Source: Nematopogon swammerdamellus (taxonomy: Eukaryota > Arthropoda > Insecta > Lepidoptera > Adelidae). Taken from it: a stretch of 64,000 nucleotides of DNA. The stretch is from NCBI GenBank assembly GCA_946902875.1, contig OX336345.1, positions 6,045,395-6,109,394 on the forward strand, written 5' to 3'. Positions 17,626 through 47,769 of the stretch are shown here, one piece after another; the stretch's first letter is position 1, and each line of letters opens with the position of its first letter. The notes under the pieces were generated by a model, which made no database searches, was not told the DNA's origin, and saw only the letters and a program-made list of their open reading frames with translations. The position numbers and the translations under genes were made by a program.

Positions 17626-18835
17626 TTTTTAGGGTTCCGTACCTCAAAAGAGGAAAAACGGAACCCTTATAGGATCACTTTGTTGTCCGTCTGGCTGGCT
17701 GTCTGTCCCTCAAGACCCTTTTTCTCAGGAACGGGTAGACGTATCAATTTGAAATTAATACCAAATATTAAGGTCTACGTTTGCTCGGAGGTGTAAAAAA
17801 ATTAAGTTTCTAAGTCAACGCAATCACAAGATACGGCCATTTATGTCATAAATTTTGCTACCGGCAAATGAAATCAAAACCTATGGAGTACTTCCCGTTG
17901 ACATAGAATCATGAAATTAGGTACGAAGCAAGGTCTAATAGCACAAGTAAAGGAAAAATTCCGAAAATTGCAAATTTGCAGTTATATCACATAAAAAAAA
18001 AGTTTGCTTCTTTTGTATGTCAAGACCCTTTTTCTCAGGAACGAGTCAAGGTATAAAGTTCAAATTAATACAAAATATTAACATCTACGATCGCTTAGAG
18101 ATGTAGGAATCTCAAGCTTCTAAATTAACACAATCAAAAGATACGGGCATTGATGTCAGATTTTGATACTCGTAAATTCACTCAAAACAAATCAAAACCT
18201 ACAGGGTACTTCCCGTTGACCTAGAATCACGAAATTCGGTACGAGGCAAGGTCTCACAGCACAAATAAAGGAAAAAATCCGAAAATTGTAAATTCGTACT
18301 TACATCACATAAAAAAAAAGTTTGCTTGTTTTGTATGTCAAGACCCTTTTTCTCAGGAACGGGTCCAGGTATCAAGCTGAAATACCACCGGCGGGGCCGC
18401 GGCGGCGGCGGCAGGGAGAATAATAAAAAAAAAATTAAATTAAATTTTAAATTATTAAAATTGTTGCGCGTTTAAAATCACGCAGTCCAAAGCACAGGTT
18501 TCTTGGTCGTTGTTTTTGCGTCAACTGGCCGGTGACGAAATATTGGATTCATGGAACAACGAATAAGTGTAATCTCGGCGTTAACTATAAAAATGAATGT
18601 TCGTTCGTTCGTTCGTCTTCTATCCGATTATGATGAAACTTTCGTGGGTTGTTGTGCGTGCACCCGCGAATGTAAAGAAAACTTAAAAAAGTTCAAATTA
18701 ATTTAAGGGATGCTTTTCGTTACGTTCATTCTAATAATCGGCACAACAATCAACGCTGACGGCACGGCACGGCGGCGCGCGGCGCCGACGGAACCCTCGG
18801 TGCGCGAGTCAGACTCGCACTTGTCCGGCTTTTTT
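17626..18835 (-). repeat. Family F, long copy with internal tandem duplication
   Basis: The outer ends are 'ttagggttccgtacctcaaa' (left) and 'ggaaccctcggtgcgcgagt', 'gactcgcacttgtccggct' (right), the minus orientation of copy 1. Inside, the segment beginning 'tcaagaccctttttctcagg' occurs at about 17,711, 18,021 and 18,339 (periods of 310 and 318 bp; the third is only about 45 bp). From 18,383 to about 18,778 lies different, partly GC-rich sequence that looks like an insertion. Confidence 0.7.
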
Positions 18836-27613: not shown

Positions 27614-27618
27614 CGGCG
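27614..27618. other. Transib target-site duplication, left
   Basis: CGGCG immediately outside CACAGTG. The same five bases follow the right end at 32,283-32,287. It fits the CGNCG target preference reported for Transib elements. Confidence 0.93.
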
Positions 27619-27657
27619 CACAGTGGGGCGATACCGTAAAAAATGGGACATAGGATA
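27619..27657 (+). repeat. Transib left terminal inverted repeat
   Basis: Heptamer CACAGTG at 27,619-27,625. About 33 of the first 37 bases match the reversed right end; the mismatches lie in the AT-rich block at 27,637-27,645 and in the last few bases. Confidence 0.92.
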
Positions 27658-27990
27658 ATTAAATTTTTTTATTTTTATTTCTGAAATTTAAGTACGCTAA
27701 ATTAATCTACCCATCATTAGAAATAACATTCATAGATTCATATTTTCTCATTTAAGCCTTATTTTTCGAGATATACCACTTTTTATTAATTTGTACTATG
27801 GAAATTGGGTAACTTTATTTTTTTTCTCGAAATGCTTAAAATAGCTAGACCCGTGGTTACTAAATAATGATTCCCCAAGGTAAAAAGATTATTACTGTGT
27901 AAAAACCGTATCCGACGACGTCCGACTTTTCCGTATAATGCCATTTTAATATTATAATAACATTTATTCCTGCAAAGCTCACCTTTATTC

Positions 27991-28258
27991 TTTTTTTTTT
28001 TTTTATTGAAACTGACACGGTTGGCTACATCACCTACAACGTCCGTGATGTCAGCCCATAGCACCGGGTGAACTAGGTGCCATGTCAGTGCTTCCCCCTT
28101 TGATCGTGCCGGCTACACTGAACTGGTCGGAGAACACAAACTATTTACATAGCCGTTTCGACCGACGTTTCATTCAGTGCGGTGGTACCAACCCGGGCGG
28201 GTTAAACCCTACCACCAAGTAAGATTAGGAGGGAAGGGACCTACAGTTTTACGAGGAA
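27991..28258 (-). repeat. SINE-A nested in the Transib leader
   Basis: Plus strand T14 + 'attgaaactgacacggttgg', 'acaacgtccgtgatgtcagc', 'ccccctttgatcgtgccggc', ending after 'acagttttacgaggaatccg'. The head is missing. The diagnostic changes (gtccgtgatg; ccctttgatcgtg; ctggtcgg) match the full copies at 42,467-42,860 and 49,801-50,186, so all three belong to one subfamily. Confidence 0.85.
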
Positions 28259-28419
28259 TCCGCTCGAATTACGAGGAATTCACTATATTCGTAACTTTCA
28301 GCTATATTCAAATAACAAATATTGTTTATTTGCATTGGATGTATATATTTGTATTTTAATGGTAAATATATTTCTCCATATCACCTATATATTTGAACTT
28401 GATGAAAATGTTTAATTTT

Positions 28420-28482
28420 TTTTTTATTGAAAGCGCGATGGCGCTGAGGCACCCAGAAGGTGACAAACGACGCCCATCTAAT
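28420..28482 (-). mobile_element. LINE-D 3' terminus nested in the Transib leader
   Basis: Plus strand 'ttttttttattgaaagcgcg', 'atggcgctgaggcacccaga', 'acaaacgacgcccatc'. It is about 400 bp upstream of the transposase start codon. Confidence 0.6.
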
Positions 28483-28802
28483 TAACTTTGTACTTTTAGT
28501 TTCATTGGTCTATTTTGATAATAATCTACGGAGCCGCTATTATCGGCTGCTATACTTACTTATAATATCTCTTATAAATGCTTACCATTATATTAGGAAT
28601 ATTTTCAACTTCGCGAGGATTAGCGGATTAGGGATATTTATGTGAATTGTCACGTATTTCCATGAAAGCTCTCGAAGAAACAATTACACTGCATTGCTAA
28701 TTGTTATCTACTTAACAAGGATTAACGATATACCAGGAATACTGCAAACTGTGCGAACTAATTAGCAGTATTCATTAGTGAACAACACAATCAATCTGGC
28801 AC

Positions 28803-28836
28803 TCAGTCTGCTCCAGTCGTTTGCACGAGTCAGTCT
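28803..28836 (+). promoter_or_regulatory. Candidate initiator / downstream promoter motifs
   Basis: TCAGTC occurs at 28,803 and again at 28,830, matching the arthropod initiator (TCAGTY). With +1 at 28,805, 'agtct' falls at about +28, four of five matches to a DPE. It is 45-80 bp upstream of the ATG. These are short motifs and could occur by chance. Confidence 0.25.
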
Positions 28837-28880
28837 TCATACCCGTGCTTTACATATTTAAAACTATTCAATACGAAAAC

Positions 28881-31037
28881 ATGGAGTCTTTTGTTAATAA
28901 CATTGATATTTACGTGTTTATGAGAAATTGTGACAGTTTTCTGAATTACGCGGTATTGGTTGCCGCTATTGCCTCAATAGTTAGTGTAAATTTGCCCGAA
29001 GAGACACAAGTGAAAGAATTTTGTCGTAAATATTGTTACAATCTACACAAACGATGGGTGAAGTCAAGCTACAACGAGGAACGTTTTCTACAGAAGAATC
29101 GAGAATGGTTGGACTCGGCCATCAAGTGGCCCGAATTCGTAAAGAAACAACTGCCTTCAGCGAGTAGCGACCTCGCGGATAACCAAAAGGTTTGCACTTC
29201 TCAAATAATTTCTCCGGGACCATCGACAGCGCCTCCTATCTTTGTAGCATCTTCACATAAATCATCGCCGAGAAAACCATTTGAAAGTTTAGGAGCCAAA
29301 CAAAAGCGAAGAAGAACCGAAGACATTCGCACAAACTATACATCGCAGGAACTAGCATTTGCGACCAAAATGCGTTTGAAGGCAAATGGGAACGAGGACC
29401 TGGGGAAAGTTTTGGACCATTTGCTTCAGAATCCAGGCGAAATCGAAAAAGTCAAAGAATTCATTGAAAAAAAGGAGTCCAAGACTATTTATTCATCTGA
29501 AAAAGCACTTGCGATTTTGGTGTCTTTAAAGCTATCAAGATGGCAATATATAACTTTAAGAGACATGGCTAAGGAAGAAGGTTCCGACCTCTATCCATCT
29601 TATTATAAAATTCAACATGCGAAAATTGAGTGTTACCCCCCAAAACAGGACATTGAAGTTACCGAAACACAGGCCAAAATTAAACTGCAAGCGCTTTTGG
29701 ACCATACTGCAAAAAGAATTTTGAAAGTGGCGAACCGAAACCTCACAGGCTGCCAGCTAACATTAACAAGCAAGTGGGGATTCGATGGCGCTTCTGGCCA
29801 AAGTACATATAAACAAAGATTTCAAGAACTGAACGAAGGAGACGACTCAAGCATTTTCATGGCAAGTTTGGTTCCTATAAAACTGGTTTATGGAGACGAA
29901 GTGATCTGGGAAAATGAGACGCCATCTTCGACGAACTACTGCCGTCCTATCTTCTTCAAATTTATGAAGGAGACAATCGATAACGTGAAAAGTGAAATGG
30001 CTACCATAGAATCCGAAATACGAGATCTCAAAACCAGCGATTACGAAAGCGTTTTGATTGAGCATTCGTTAATTATGACGATGATCGATGGTAAAATTAC
30101 GTCGATTATCTCCGGTACCTCTAATCAGTCATGTGATATTTGCAGAGCTAAACCGTCTGAGATGAATAACGTTAATATAATTAAAAGTAAAGAAGTAAAC
30201 ACAAATATGTACCGGTTCGGACTATCTACGTTGCATGCCTGGATTCGATGCATGGAATGCCTTCTCCATATTGCATACCGCATGGATTTTCAGCAGTGGT
30301 CGGCCAAAGGTAATAATAAAGAAATTATGACCGAGAAAAAAAAACAAATTCAAGATAATTTCAGGAAAGAAACTGGTTTATTGATCGACGTGGTAAAACA
30401 AGGTTCAGGAACCACGAACGATGGCAACACTGCAAGGCGCTTTTTCCAGAATCCCGAGCAAACTGCCTCTATTACCGGTCTCGATAAGGATTTAATTAAT
30501 AGATTCGCGGTGATCCTTAAGGCCATCTCCTCGGGAGAAAAAGTTTGCACTCAAAACTTTGAAATCTATGCTCAAGAAACAATTCAACTTTATATATCAT
30601 TGTATAGCTGGTATCATATGCCAGCAAGTGTTCATAAACTTTTATTCCATGGATCTGAAATAATAAAGCATTTTAACGTAATTCCAATTGGCATACTCTC
30701 CGAAGAGGCATCAGAAGCAAGAAATAAAGATTTCAAGAAGTACAGGGAACACTACTCTCGAAAATGCGATCGCAAATCGACTAATCAAGACATTCTCAAC
30801 AACTTGCTCGTATCGTCGGATCCATATTTGTCTAGTATGAAGCCAAAACTTCAAAAACAAAAGCAGCCCTTATCCAGTGAAGTGCGACATTTGCTAATTA
30901 TAGACGATAAAAATAAGGAAAATATTGAATTTATTGATACCAGTATTATCTGTGTTCAATCGGATGTGGAGGATGATGATGATTCTGACGCTGAAGACGC
31001 TTTAGGTTGTTCCAGTGATGAAAATGAAAATTTGTAG
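28881..31037 (+). CDS. Transib transposase (RAG1-core homologue), 718 aa
   Basis: DDE/RNase H-like transposase predicted to bind the element's ends and perform cut-and-paste transposition in the nucleus. I start it at the ATG 28,881 (MESFVNNID; context aaaacATGG). The frame is open 20 codons further up to a TTG, but no upstream ATG exists. Landmarks: basic patch KQKRRR (about 141-146), possible nuclear signal; D302 in WGFDGASGQSTYKQ and D403 in MIDGK as first and second catalytic Asp; E609 in LSEEASEARNKD as the Glu aligning with RAG1 E962; zinc ligands CDIC (C418, C421) and H585/H590, with the same five-residue His offset as RAG1 H937/H942; TNDGNTARRFF (512-522), a family signature; acidic C-terminus (VEDDDDSDAED). 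No stop, frameshift or intron is seen. Length is normal for the family. Family assignment is from motif recognition; activity is inferred, not shown. Confidence 0.95.
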   Translation: MESFVNNIDIYVFMRNCDSFLNYAVLVAAIASIVSVNLPEETQVKEFCRKYCYNLHKRWVKSSYNEERFLQKNREWLDSAIKWPEFVKKQLPSASSDLADNQKVCTSQIISPGPSTAPPIFVASSHKSSPRKPFESLGAKQKRRRTEDIRTNYTSQELAFATKMRLKANGNEDLGKVLDHLLQNPGEIEKVKEFIEKKESKTIYSSEKALAILVSLKLSRWQYITLRDMAKEEGSDLYPSYYKIQHAKIECYPPKQDIEVTETQAKIKLQALLDHTAKRILKVANRNLTGCQLTLTSKWGFDGASGQSTYKQRFQELNEGDDSSIFMASLVPIKLVYGDEVIWENETPSSTNYCRPIFFKFMKETIDNVKSEMATIESEIRDLKTSDYESVLIEHSLIMTMIDGKITSIISGTSNQSCDICRAKPSEMNNVNIIKSKEVNTNMYRFGLSTLHAWIRCMECLLHIAYRMDFQQWSAKGNNKEIMTEKKKQIQDNFRKETGLLIDVVKQGSGTTNDGNTARRFFQNPEQTASITGLDKDLINRFAVILKAISSGEKVCTQNFEIYAQETIQLYISLYSWYHMPASVHKLLFHGSEIIKHFNVIPIGILSEEASEARNKDFKKYREHYSRKCDRKSTNQDILNNLLVSSDPYLSSMKPKLQKQKQPLSSEVRHLLIIDDKNKENIEFIDTSIICVQSDVEDDDDSDAEDALGCSSDENENL

Positions 31038-31049
31038 AAATATTGAGTA

Positions 31050-31065
31050 AATAAATTGTAATAAA
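31050..31065 (+). terminator. Polyadenylation signals of the transposase gene
   Basis: Two AATAAA hexamers, 31,050-31,055 and 31,060-31,065, start 13 and 23 bp after the TAG stop. More AT-rich candidates follow downstream. Confidence 0.6.
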
Positions 31066-31734
31066 AATAGGAAGCTTTATGTACTTTAAAAATATTTATT
31101 TAAAAGTTATTAAGTATGTTTTATTTTTGTAAGATTGAAATAAGATTTTTTCTCAGAAATATGTAGTTTGAATTTCTTTTTGTTATGCACGATAAACATA
31201 CTTCAGAAAATTACTTTTATTCTTGACCATAATTTTTATTGATAGTTGGTATTTTTACATTAAATAGGCTCCGTTAAAAGCCATGGGTATTTGGGTAATA
31301 ATGTATTATTACTTTGAAAACTTTTATTATTACTTTTAATAATGTATTATTACTTTTCTCATCATTAATCACTATTCTTAATGTTGATGTTATTAATTTT
31401 ATACTTTGAAGTAGGTTTATAATATACTTTGACGGGGGCAATTTTTTGCCTAATTATAATAAATTATAGTAAGTTTGATATATCGAAGTGTGCAGAGCCA
31501 CCAAAATGACGAAATGAAAATACACAACGATATATATAACTTATAATAAGTTAATAATTCGGTAAGTTCCGTAAATACAAAAATATATGTAGTTAGTTAA
31601 ATATGTAGTAATTTATATATGTTTAATTACTATCGCCAGATTAATTTGTAATATTTTATGCAAATATGCGCCGTCTGATTGATTGTATTTTGTGTGTAAT
31701 AAACGTACCATTCCACTACAATAATTTTATTCAG

Positions 31735-32282
31735 ATTAGACTACTCAACTTGAAGAATCATTATTAAGTAACCACAGGTCTAGTTATTTTAAGCATTTCA
31801 ATAAAAAAAGTTACTAAATCTCCATTGTACAAACTATTGAAAAGGATTATAACACCTTAACAGAAAATCTCTGAGAACAAAATGTATTCACATATTCAGT
31901 TTTCCACATATCCCAATTTTTTTTACTAAAGAATTTTCAATGTGATATATCTAAAAAATAACAATTGAAACCGAAAATATGGAAGAGTAATACTAGTTAC
32001 AAGAAATTGTATTTTTTAAAGTTCAAATTACTATATCTCAGAAAATAAGACTTAAAATGGAAAATTTCTAAGAATAAAAGTAGTTTGTAATCATTAAGAG
32101 AATATATTAACATACTCACTTTTTACTATATTATAAATGTTTTTATAAGTGCTTATATCTCGGAAAATAATTTTTTTATCAAAAAATCTCACAGAATGAA
32201 AGTTGTTCGTAATTAATAGTAGAATCTATTTGCGTAGTCATTTCGCCCTATGTCCCGGTTTTTGCGGTATCGCCCCACTGTG
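31735..32282 (-). repeat. Transib right arm: inverted subterminal block, tandem subrepeats and TIR
   Basis: 31,735-31,818 is the inverted counterpart of 27,807-27,885 ('aatgcttaaaata' + 'ctagacc' + 'gtggttact' on the left). From about 31,860 to 32,240 segments of the type 'tatatctcRgaaaataa'...'agaatRaaagt.gtt.gtaat' repeat at 31,960, 32,030 and 32,155, so this arm is about 280 bp longer than the left. The outer 40 bp (32,243-32,282) is the TIR. Confidence 0.8.
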
Positions 32283-32287
32283 CGGCG
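32283..32287. other. Transib target-site duplication, right
   Basis: CGGCG directly after CACTGTG, identical to 27,614-27,618. Confidence 0.93.
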
Positions 32288-33704: not shown

Positions 33705-36700
33705 CTGCGTTTACTTACTTTACAGTTTATTTATTTACAGTCACAACATTTTATTTACTTACCTTACAGCTTATTTATTTACAGTCAAAACATTTTATTT
33801 AATTACCTTACAGCTTATTTATTTACAGTTACAAAATTTTATTTACTTACCTTACAGCTTATTTATTTACAGTCACATTTTATTTACTTACTTACAGCTT
33901 ATTTATTTACATTCACTACATTTTATTTACTTACCTTACAGCTTATTTATTTACAGTCACAACATTTTATTTACTTACCTCACAGTTTATTTATTTACAG
34001 TCAAAACCTTTTATTTACTTACCTTACAGCTTATTTATTTACATTCACTACATTTTATTTACTTACCTTACAGCTTATTTATTTACAGTCACAACATTTT
34101 ATTTACTTACCTCACAGTTTATTTATTTACAGTCACAACATTTTATTTACTTACCTTACAGCTTATTTATTTACAGTCAAAACATTTTATTTAATTACCT
34201 TACAGCTTATTTATTTACAGTTACAAAATTTTATTTACTTACCTTACAGCTTATTTATTTACAGTCACATTTTATTTACTTACTTACAGCTTATTTATTT
34301 ACATTCACTACATTTTATTTACTTACCTTACAGCTTATTTATTTACAGTCACAACATTTTATTTACTTACCTCACAGCTTATTTATTTACAGTCACATTT
34401 TATTTACTTACCTTACAGCTTATTTATTTACATTCACTACATTTTATTTACTTACCTTACAGCTTATTTATTTACAGTCACAACATTTTATTTACTTACC
34501 TCACAGCTTATTTATTTACAGTCACATTTTATTTACTTACCTTACAGCTTATTTATTTACAGTCACAACATTTTATTTACTTACCTTACAGCTTATTTAT
34601 TTACAGTCAAAACATTTTATTTAATTACCTTACAGCTTATTTATTTACAGTTACAAAATTTTATTTACTTACCTTACAGCTTATTTATTTACAGTCACAT
34701 TTTATTTACTTACTTACAGCTTATTTATTTACATTCACTACATTTTATTTACTTACCTTACAGCTTATTTATTTACAGTCACAACATTTTATTTACTTAC
34801 CTCACAGCTTATTTATTTACAGTCACATTTTATTTACTTACCTTACAGCTTATTTATTTACATTCACTACATTTTATTTACTTACCTTACAGCTTATTTA
34901 TTTACAGTCACAACATTTTATTTACTTACCTCACAGCTTATTTATTTACAGTCACATTTTATTTACTTACCTTACAGCTTATTTATTTACATTCACTACA
35001 TTTTATTTACTTACCTTACAGCTTATTTATTTACAGTCACAACATTTTATTTACTTACCTCATAGTTTATTTATTTACAGTCAAAACATTTTATTTACTT
35101 ACCTTACAGCTTATTTATTTACAGTTACAAAATTTTATTTACTTACCTTACAGCTTATTTATTTACAGTCACATTTTATTTACTTACTTACAGCTTATTT
35201 ATTTACAGTCACTACATTTTATTTACTTACCTTACATCTGATTTATTTACAGTAACAACATTTTATTTACTACCTTAGAGCTTATTTATTTACAGTCAGA
35301 ACATTATATTTACTTACATTACAGCTTATTTATTTGCAGTCACAACATTTTATTTACTTACCTTACAGCTTATTTATTTACAGTCACCACATTCTATTAA
35401 CTTACCTTGCAGCTTATTTATTTATAGTCACAACATTTTATTTACTACCTTAGAGCTTATTTATTTACAGTCAGAACATTATATTTACTTACATTACAGC
35501 TTATTTATTTGCAGTCACAACATTTTATTTACTTACCTTACAGCTTATTTATTTACAGTCACCACATTCTATTAACTTACCTTGCAGCTTATTTATTTAC
35601 AGTCACAACATTTTATTTACTTACCTCACAGCTTATTTATTTACAGTCACATTTTATTTACTTACCTTACAGCTTATTTATTTACATTCACTACATTTTA
35701 TTTACTTACCTTACAGCTTATTTATTTACAGTCACAACATTTTATTTACTTACCTCATAGTTTATTTATTTACAGTCAAAACATTTTATTTACTTACCTT
35801 ACAGCTTATTTATTTACAGTTACAAAATTTTATTTACTTACCTTACAGCTTATTTATTTACAGTCACATTTTATTTACTTACTTACAGCTTATTTATTTA
35901 CAGTCACTACATTTTATTTACTTACCTTACAGCTTATTTATTTACAGTCACCACATTCTATTAACTTACCTTACAGCTTATTTATTTACAGTCACAACAT
36001 TTTATTTACTTACCTCACAGCTTATTTATTTACAGTCACATTTTATTTACTTACCTTACAGCTTATTTATTTACATTCACTACATTTTATTTACTTACCT
36101 TACAGCTTATTTATTTACAGTCACAACATTTTATTTACTTACCTCATAGTTTATTTATTTACAGTCAAAACATTTTATTTACTTACCTTACAGCTTATTT
36201 ATTTACAGTTACAAAATTTTATTTACTTACCTTACAGCTTATTTATTTACAGTCACATTTTATTTACTTACTTACAGCTTATTTATTTACAGTCACTACA
36301 TTTTATTTACTTACCTTACATCTGATTTATTTACAGTAACAACATTTTATTTACTACCTTAGAGCTTATTTATTTACAGTCAGAACATTATATTTACTTA
36401 CATTACAGCTTATTTATTTGCAGTCACAACATTTTATTTACTTACCTTACAGCTTATTTATTTACAGTCACCACATTCTATTAACTTACCTTGCAGCTTA
36501 TTTATTTATAGTCACAACATTTTATTTACTACCTTAGAGCTTATTTATTTACAGTCAGAACATTATATTTACTTACATTACAGCTTATTTATTTGCAGTC
36601 ACAACATTTTATTTACTTACCTTACAGCTTATTTATTTACAGTCACCACATTCTATTAACTTACCTTGCAGCTTATTTATTTACAGTCACTACATTTTAT

Positions 36701-36965
36701 TTACTTACCTTACATCTGATTTATTTACAGTAACAACATTTTATTTACTACCTTAGAGCTTATTTATTTACAGTCAGAACATTATATTTACTTACATTAC
36801 AGCTTATTTATTTGCAGTCACAACATTTTATTTACTTACCTTACAGCTTATTTATTTACAGTCACCACATTCTATTAACTTACCTTGCAGCTTATTTATT
36901 TACAGTCACAACATTTTATTTACCTACTTACCTTACAGCTTTTTTATTTATAGTCCCAACATTTT
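33705..36965. repeat. 44-bp minisatellite array, about 75 units with higher-order structure
   Basis: The unit is 'cttatttatttacagtcaca' + 'acattttatttacttacctt' + 'acag' (44 bp), with variants of 40-44 bp. Variant types recur in fixed orders: a six-unit block (caca / caaa..ttaattacc / ttacaaaa / short / cattcacta / ctcacag) appears at 33,720, 34,130 and 34,560; a twelve-unit block from about 34,900 to 35,400 recurs from about 35,990 to 36,480. Because 44 is not divisible by three and lacks stops, long frames (up to 594 codons, tyrosine/leucine-rich with a 44-residue period) arise by chance. No protein is proposed. Confidence 0.95.
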
Positions 36966-37845
36966 AGAATCATAGAAATAATTTTTATGTTTTCAGTTTT
37001 AATCACTACACGGGACGAACAAGTCAAGGAGATAGAGTTTAGCCGGCCGGTTAGGTTAGTTGTATGTAACGCCAGATATTAAGAATTATTCTTCAGAAAC
37101 TGTGCTATCCCGTTGTCAACCTATTGTCATAATATTATATTTGTACTGTGAACGTGATTAAATTATTATTAACAAAATACTCTACGTCGAGACGTCGAAT
37201 AATTACTTCATACTTCTAAAACGCAATCACGACTTCAAAACTAATAGCGGCGGCTAGTAACGAGGCTCGCTCGGCTCGTCCAATAAAAGGAGAGTTAATA
37301 ACCAAACAGCAGTTATCCAAACAGAGCGAGAGGACAGCGGGGAGCGGGGGTGAGGACCCCCTCCAATTTATAGGCCTCTAAATTATGGGCGCAGTACGCG
37401 CACCGTTCGTGCCGGGGTGGACAGAACGCTGCAACCCGGGTTACAACGTTTTTTATGTGCAACCATCTATGCTCTGGTACCCGAGGATTTTACCGACTGG
37501 AGTGAATTACGATTTGGTCTTAAAATTTGTTACCTACTCGTGATAAATTGAGATAAGCATATTTTCTTTTTGTCTTCTTTAAGGCCCTGTCAACCCATAT
37601 TCACCCGTACTCCTCTTTCAAGGTGCGGCTTTCCCTGGTTAGAGTAGGATGCAACACAACCAATCAAAAATTTGGTTTTTATTTTTTTATTCCAAAACTA
37701 CGGATCGAAACAAAAAAGTAAAAAGCTACGGATTTAGATACATATTCAACAAATAAAATATACTTTTTCCAAAGCCTTGATTTGGTTACGTTGCCTTATA
37801 TACGTTTTTTCTAAATTCAGAGGCATGTTCATGAGTTTTTTCTGT
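36966..37845. other. No gene recognised
   Basis: Single-copy-looking DNA between the minisatellite and repeat X. No supported coding region. Confidence 0.35.
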
Positions 37846-46671: not shown

Positions 46672-47769
46672 ATGAGTTTTTTTTATACGTTTGAATTTTC
46701 TTCAAGCTATCGACTTGTTTTGGGGGCGGGGAAACTTTTTCTGCTCACTTCATTATTTCATATGCTTCATTTCTCATTTTCGCTCCCTTTTTGGAGGTAC
46801 TTTGTATGCCCCCCCTCCCTAAACGCCGGTGTCCCTCAGGGAGGTGTGCTTTCTCCACTTCTTTTCTCTGTATTTATTAATACACTAGCCCAAATTCTGG
46901 TTTGTCACTACCACTTCTATGCTGACGATTTGCAGCTTTACCGCCAGTCTTCCGTATCCGAGCTTTTGCCCACTATCAACCTTGTCAATTCAGATTTATC
47001 TGGAGTGCGTCATTGGACAGATCGTTTTGGCCTTCAAGTCAATCCATCAAAATCTCAAATCATGATAGTGGGCAGTAGCAAATTCTTGAGTAGAATAGAT
47101 AGGGACAATTTGCCGCCAGTGTCATATAACGGTGTCACTATTACATACAGCAGAGTAGTCAAGAACCTCGGCATTGTCATGGACGACTCTCTTTCTTGGG
47201 TCCAGCATGTCAGTGGGGTATGCAAGAAGGTTTACGGTGCTATGCATTCTCTAAAGCGACTCAATCGATTCCTTCCGGTCGAAACCAAGACTATGCTAGT
47301 ACAATCCCTTATTCACCCAATTCTGGATTATGGCGATATCTGCAATCTCGATTTAAACGAAGAGCTACTCAATAAGTTAGATCGTTTACTCAATTTCGGC
47401 ATCCGATTTATTTTCGGATTGCGTAAATATGATCATGTTTCTGCTTACCGTGATCAACTTGAGTGGCTCACTATTCGTCAACGTCGGAACATGCATGTTC
47501 TTTCCCTTCTCTTTACAATTCTTAACGACCCCAATTCCCCCATCTACCTCAGAGAGAGGTTTGCCTATCTCTCCTCGCATGGCGTACCGCTAAGGTCAGC
47601 TGACAGCCTCCTTCTTCTCATCCCCTCTCACAGCTCCTCTAGCTATTCCGAATCGTTTTCTGTAATGTCAGCGCGCCTGTGGAATAATCTCCCACCAGCC
47701 ATCAAAACATCTCCAACTCTTGCCACATTCAAAAAGCGTCTGAAAGAAATGTATCTCTCCAAAGAATAG
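46672..47769 (+). CDS. Reverse transcriptase C-terminal part (non-LTR), 365 codons open
   Basis: Palm-domain motifs are visible: NAGVPQGGVLSPLLFSVFIN at residues 51-70, the catalytic box FYADD at 82-86, then 'LQVNPSKSQIMIVGSS', 'VKNLGIVMDDSLSW' and the C-terminal 'SARLWNNLPPAIKTSPTLAT'. The order is normal for CR1/Jockey-like ORF2 C-termini. The N-terminal endonuclease and the first RT motifs are absent. Residues 1-45 do not look like RT and are probably flanking DNA read in frame, so the ATG is not a true start. The retained part has no stop, which suggests a fairly young insertion. Not functional by itself. Confidence 0.85.
   Translation: MSFFYTFEFSSSYRLVLGAGKLFLLTSLFHMLHFSFSLPFWRYFVCPPSLNAGVPQGGVLSPLLFSVFINTLAQILVCHYHFYADDLQLYRQSSVSELLPTINLVNSDLSGVRHWTDRFGLQVNPSKSQIMIVGSSKFLSRIDRDNLPPVSYNGVTITYSRVVKNLGIVMDDSLSWVQHVSGVCKKVYGAMHSLKRLNRFLPVETKTMLVQSLIHPILDYGDICNLDLNEELLNKLDRLLNFGIRFIFGLRKYDHVSAYRDQLEWLTIRQRRNMHVLSLLFTILNDPNSPIYLRERFAYLSSHGVPLRSADSLLLLIPSHSSSSYSESFSVMSARLWNNLPPAIKTSPTLATFKKRLKEMYLSKE

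Follow-up and report, generated by a model that had tools for sequence, protein, structure and literature searches.

A Transib transposon with matching ends, a 5-bp target duplication and an uninterrupted transposase gene in Nematopogon swammerdamellus

The 64,000-nucleotide stretch of Nematopogon swammerdamellus DNA that we analysed (the window) carries, at positions 27619-32282, a 4,664-bp element that is almost certainly an autonomous-type Transib cut-and-paste DNA transposon, inserted in a GC-rich site with 5 bp (CGGCG) duplicated. Its ends, its 5-bp duplication and its intact transposase uphold the family assignment made in an earlier, sequence-only reading. It is a new example of a family that is itself common and well known in insects. 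The same reading called the element structurally complete, which holds for the ends, the target duplication and the open reading frame (ORF) and fails for the 5' region, where at least two nested repeats have inserted. The boundaries of the element are as follows.

27614..27618, unstranded: target site duplication CGGCG, left copy (0.4% chance in shuffled flanks)
27619..27654, plus strand: left terminal inverted repeat (TIR), starting CACAGTGGGGCGATACCG; 33 of 36 bases equal the right end
32247..32282, minus strand: right TIR; 33 of 36 bases equal the left end
32283..32287, unstranded: target site duplication CGGCG, right copy (0.4% chance in shuffled flanks)

The CACAGTG ends, matching TIRs and CGGCG flanks that had been claimed were all found again: CACAGTG occupies 27619-27625 and its reverse complement terminates at 32282, and the two TIRs are identical over their first 18 bases (CACAGTGGGGCGATACCG). 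Both TIRs starting CACAGTG (or CAC) and a GC-rich 5-bp target site duplication on each side are marks of the Transib superfamily. A 5-bp target duplication has been reported for both Transib and RAG, and the duplication reported for Helicoverpa armigera Transib follows the pattern CNNNG.

Between these ends lies a single transposase gene, with the following features.

28881..31037, plus strand: Transib transposase of 718 codons, readable without an intron; catalytic residues D302, D403 and E612, zinc ligands C418, C421, H585 and H590
28881..29150, plus strand: N-terminal helical domain, residues 1-90, missing from the solved HzTransib chain
29259..29429, plus strand: residues 127-183, with a fold like that of the RAG1 nonamer-binding domain (weak score)
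31050..31065, plus strand: two AATAAA poly(A) signals directly 3' of the stop codon, starting at 31050 and 31060

The only stop codon in the 718-codon frame is the terminal one, so the claim of an uninterrupted transposase was correct. The start codon at 28881 lies in the context AACATGG, which we take to be a good one, and no other ORF of at least 100 amino acids (aa) lies wholly inside the element. The protein matches the chain of the Helicoverpa zea transposase (HzTransib; 6pqn) with an E value of 1.3e-167, is 55% identical to this solved transposase over the core, and has a predicted fold that matches those of HzTransib and RAG1. It is thus a RAG1-like DDE (RNase H-fold) enzyme homologous to known Transib transposases, as expected of the superfamily. 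In Pfam, the window protein drew one family, PriX, with an E value of 0.44, below the cut-off; among four homologues, RAG1 (PF12940) was matched below the cut-off in one and DDE_Tnp_1_7 above it in another, the latter probably a fused gene model. Weak PDB matches of the window protein to Vps75 and the proteasome subunit Rpn2 were dismissed as chance.

Alignment with HzTransib and the RAG1 core, which the sequence-only reading had proposed as a check, supported its choice of D302 and D403 as DDE residues and contradicted its choice of E609. A review gives the HzTransib catalytic residues as D126, D225 and E436, with spacings of 99 and 211 (PMC6941560). In our alignment to the HzTransib chain, D302, D403 and E612 fall on positions 109, 208 and 419, again with spacings of 99 and 211, while E609 falls on position 416, off the expected spacing. 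Since E612 reproduces the HzTransib spacings and E609 does not fit them, the alignment identifies E612 as the catalytic glutamate, three residues from the one originally named. To place these residues in mouse RAG1, profile positions 579-642 were mapped onto residues 935-996 of the 1,040-residue chain and the two-residue gap of 3jbw was added; with this offset, computed by hand, E612 corresponds to residue 962, H585 to 937 and H590 to 942.

Conservation was scored on the best 120 of 407 homologues found in a homology search. Among these 120, position 302 is Asp in 119, position 403 is Asp in 117, and position 612 is Glu in 116 (the rest being three gaps and one Arg). E609 is a conserved neighbour, with Glu in 107 and Asp in 10. 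The zinc-binding C-x2-C and H-x4-H that characterize the superfamily are present as well, which confirms the C-C/H-H ligands proposed earlier: C418 and C421 are kept in 120 of 120, H585 in 118 and H590 in 119. All seven catalytic and zinc residues are retained in 113 of the 120, and the window ORF departs from the near-invariant residues of these homologues at just one position.

At its N terminus the window protein is about 180 residues longer than HzTransib, as the alignment pairs residue 21 of HzTransib with residue 201 of the window protein. Of the 120 listed homologues, 101 carry the greater part of the region concerned (28881-29410), with 140 or more aligned residues ahead of residue 176. 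One 705-aa homologue, P0029, is 94% identical to the HzTransib core and has both an N-terminal extension and a methionine at residue 179; for this reason, work on HzTransib may have used a form that begins at an internal methionine. Residues 1-90 found no convincing match in the PDB, which does not establish a new fold. For a RAG1-type nonamer-binding domain, we looked for a fold like that of the RAG1 domain together with a GRP motif; the resemblance of residues 127-183 to this fold has the weak score listed above.

Judged by their sequences, intact Transib transposases are not rare. All seven residues, at least 140 residues before position 176 and a length of at least 640 aa are combined in 94 of the 120 listed homologues, and a published table for H. 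armigera gives 40 Transib sequences, 32 of them with a full-length copy, and 188 copies (PMC7764229). The earlier description of Transib copies as usually fragmentary is therefore unfair to moth Transib. In public sequence data, the Transib transposases P0002 and its relatives are also full length, the best being 52% identical over 97% of the window protein. The top named relatives among the matches listed are from the moths Manduca, Chilo and Amyelois. Most of the 120 listed homologues come from contigs of ~2-4 kb, so their transposon ends are not visible. In a tree of 122 rows built by a quick method, the window protein branches alone (length 0.43) within a 21-row group whose support of 92 lies below the mark of 95; HzTransib belongs to a separate 28-row group with support of 100 that does not include the window protein.

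We saw no second copy of the element elsewhere in the window, nor in a 205-kb sample of the same genome that is far too small for this purpose; the sample yielded one weak match of 47 bp (81%), which is to the left subterminal region. In viral contigs, 11 stretches fit patterns derived from the window protein, patterns that reach close relatives only, and none of the 11 encodes a relative. The exact 18-bp TIR occurs in two viral contigs, once in each and with no partner in the stretch examined; we dropped these matches, since by our estimate a collection this large should contain about one or two by chance.

The homology between the two ends of the element extends inward from the TIRs.

27683..27775, plus strand: left subterminal unit, one copy, ending TTATTTTTCGAGATATA; its matches to right units 1 and 2 each outscore all 500 shuffles
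27779..27879, plus strand: internal inverted repeat, left arm; 81% identity with 31749-31844 over 101 alignment columns
31749..31844, minus strand: internal inverted repeat, right arm, paired with 27779..27879
31946..31998, minus strand: right subterminal unit 3 (partial); its match to right unit 2 is equalled in none of 500 shuffles
32032..32123, minus strand: right subterminal unit 2; above 500 of 500 shuffles against the left unit
32154..32236, minus strand: right subterminal unit 1; above 500 of 500 shuffles against the left unit

The arms of the internal inverted repeat match with an E value of 1.5e-22, a score reached in none of 500 shuffles. The subterminal unit, ~90 bp long and ending TTATTTTCCGAGATATA or a close variant, has a single copy at the left end and about three copies at the right. 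The match between right units 1 and 2 outscores all 500 shuffles, and that between the left unit and right unit 3 is weak, being equalled in 9 of 500. We rejected a fourth unit at the right end, since 270 of 500 shuffles scored as well. We found no title on subterminal repeats in Transib among non-paywalled literature, searched by title only, and do not claim that such repeats are undescribed.

We also scored the ends against what we take to be the consensus nonamer of the RAG recombination signal sequence (RSS). At the right end, GCAAAAACC matches at 8 of 9 positions with a spacer of 10 (1.1% of shuffles do as well); the left end matches at 5 of 9 (59% of shuffles). An RSS-like reading was dropped because the match is at one end only. 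It is conceivable, if unlikely, that the ends are functionally unequal and that the subterminal repeats are an array of candidate extra transposase-binding sites, recognised by the nonamer-binding-like domain at the N terminus, which the solved HzTransib lacks. Were this so, this Transib would discriminate its left from its right end, which would serve a purpose like that of the 12/23 rule.

Two repeats foreign to the element lie inside it, both upstream of the transposase ORF.

27995..28262, minus strand: nested retroposon-like repeat, not Transib, poly-T side at the left; 26 other matches in the window
28416..28477, minus strand: second nested repeat fragment with poly-T; three other matches in the window and four weak ones in the 205-kb same-genome sample

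The first repeat is dispersed and most likely a retroposon tail. Eleven of its 26 matches elsewhere in the window are at least 200 bp long, the best being 96% identical, and the 205-kb sample holds a further 61 matches in 19 of 21 stretches, the top-scoring of them 98.1% identical. The nested copy is probably truncated, since four of nine aligned window copies extend beyond its end. By its right end (28249-28284), a 16-base stretch recurs 20 bases on, perhaps as a trace of the insertion event.

Elsewhere in the window, a 44-bp tandem satellite of ~75 copies occupies 33710-36966, 1.4 kb to the right of the element, and yields a spurious 594-aa ORF, and a 318-bp unit is repeated in tandem at 17710-18383 (2.1 copies, 81% matches). 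A 365-aa ORF at 46672-47769 has YADD and companion motifs that we take to be reverse-transcriptase-like, and is probably a fragment of a non-LTR retrotransposon. Searches for tRNAs and Rfam families found none.

Given the nested repeats, the Transib copy is not a fresh insertion, and it is older than the insertions it contains unless it moved with them inside. We envisage that it inserted at a GC-rich site, where CGGCG was duplicated, and that at least two retroposon-like insertions later entered the region upstream of the ORF. By its relation to HzTransib, for which cut-and-paste transposition with hairpins on the flanks has been reported, the transposase would bind both TIRs and cut at CACAGTG, leaving hairpins on the flanking DNA and releasing the element, whose ends would then be joined to a new target at positions 5 bp apart. 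Because its gene and ends are intact, the copy may still be mobile or mobilisable. The description of it as a candidate active element stands, given the intact ends, duplication and transposase, and current activity is plausible, if on balance doubtful.

The chances are only a little short of even that the copy is instead an immobile relic, Transib by origin, that makes no transposase because the nested repeats part the gene from its promoter. Both insertions sit between the left TIR and the ORF, where they may separate the promoter from the gene; however, the ORF is open and strays from near-invariant residues only once, a promoter could lie between 28478 and 28881, and the insertion of the first repeat may be recent, as its 98.1% identical relative suggests. 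An ORF intact despite signs of age would also suit a host gene domesticated from a Transib, but this is very improbable: the TIRs and target duplication are intact at the very ends, and the homologues are numerous and differ widely in sequence, as mobile elements should. That TIR-like ends and a transposase gene came together by chance or assembly we dismiss, for although the GC-rich, low-complexity flanks ease a 5-bp match and the first 8 TIR bases alone are uninformative (two occurrences in the window versus 0.93 expected), the perfect 18-bp end sequence occurs window-wide only at these two sites with up to three mismatches (0 expected from 100 shuffles), 100,000 shuffles of the flanks, run because these are GC rich, gave a 5-bp match in 0.4% of cases, and further inverted homology lies inside both ends.

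The element can be compared with known systems. With RAG1, both the core recombinase and the RAG1-like protein of ProtoRAG, the window protein shares the RNase H fold and the catalytic and zinc positions, at 16-18% identity in structural alignments; the RAG recognition heptamer is likewise reported to start with CAC. No RAG2-like ORF of at least 100 aa lies wholly within the element, by a length criterion that a multi-exon gene would escape. Transib Subgroup II has been defined by a CTT2 tail and the loss of RAG2-binding helices (PMC9435367). With HzTransib (6pqn, 6pqr, 6pqu, 6pqx, 6pqy and 6pr5), the window protein shares the DDE core, zinc ligands and fold. This related moth transposase has been reported to be functional, and its structure to have been solved together with its DNA; with 94 of the 120 listed homologues near full length and keeping all seven key residues, the rarity of the window copy and its value for RAG evolution had been overstated. 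What the element offers is a well-bounded reference copy, ends and protein together, for a Transib lineage other than that of HzTransib. If active, it would be a second moth Transib, with a natural N terminus and an unequal subterminal repeat array, and useful for probing the role of the region that the HzTransib structures lack.
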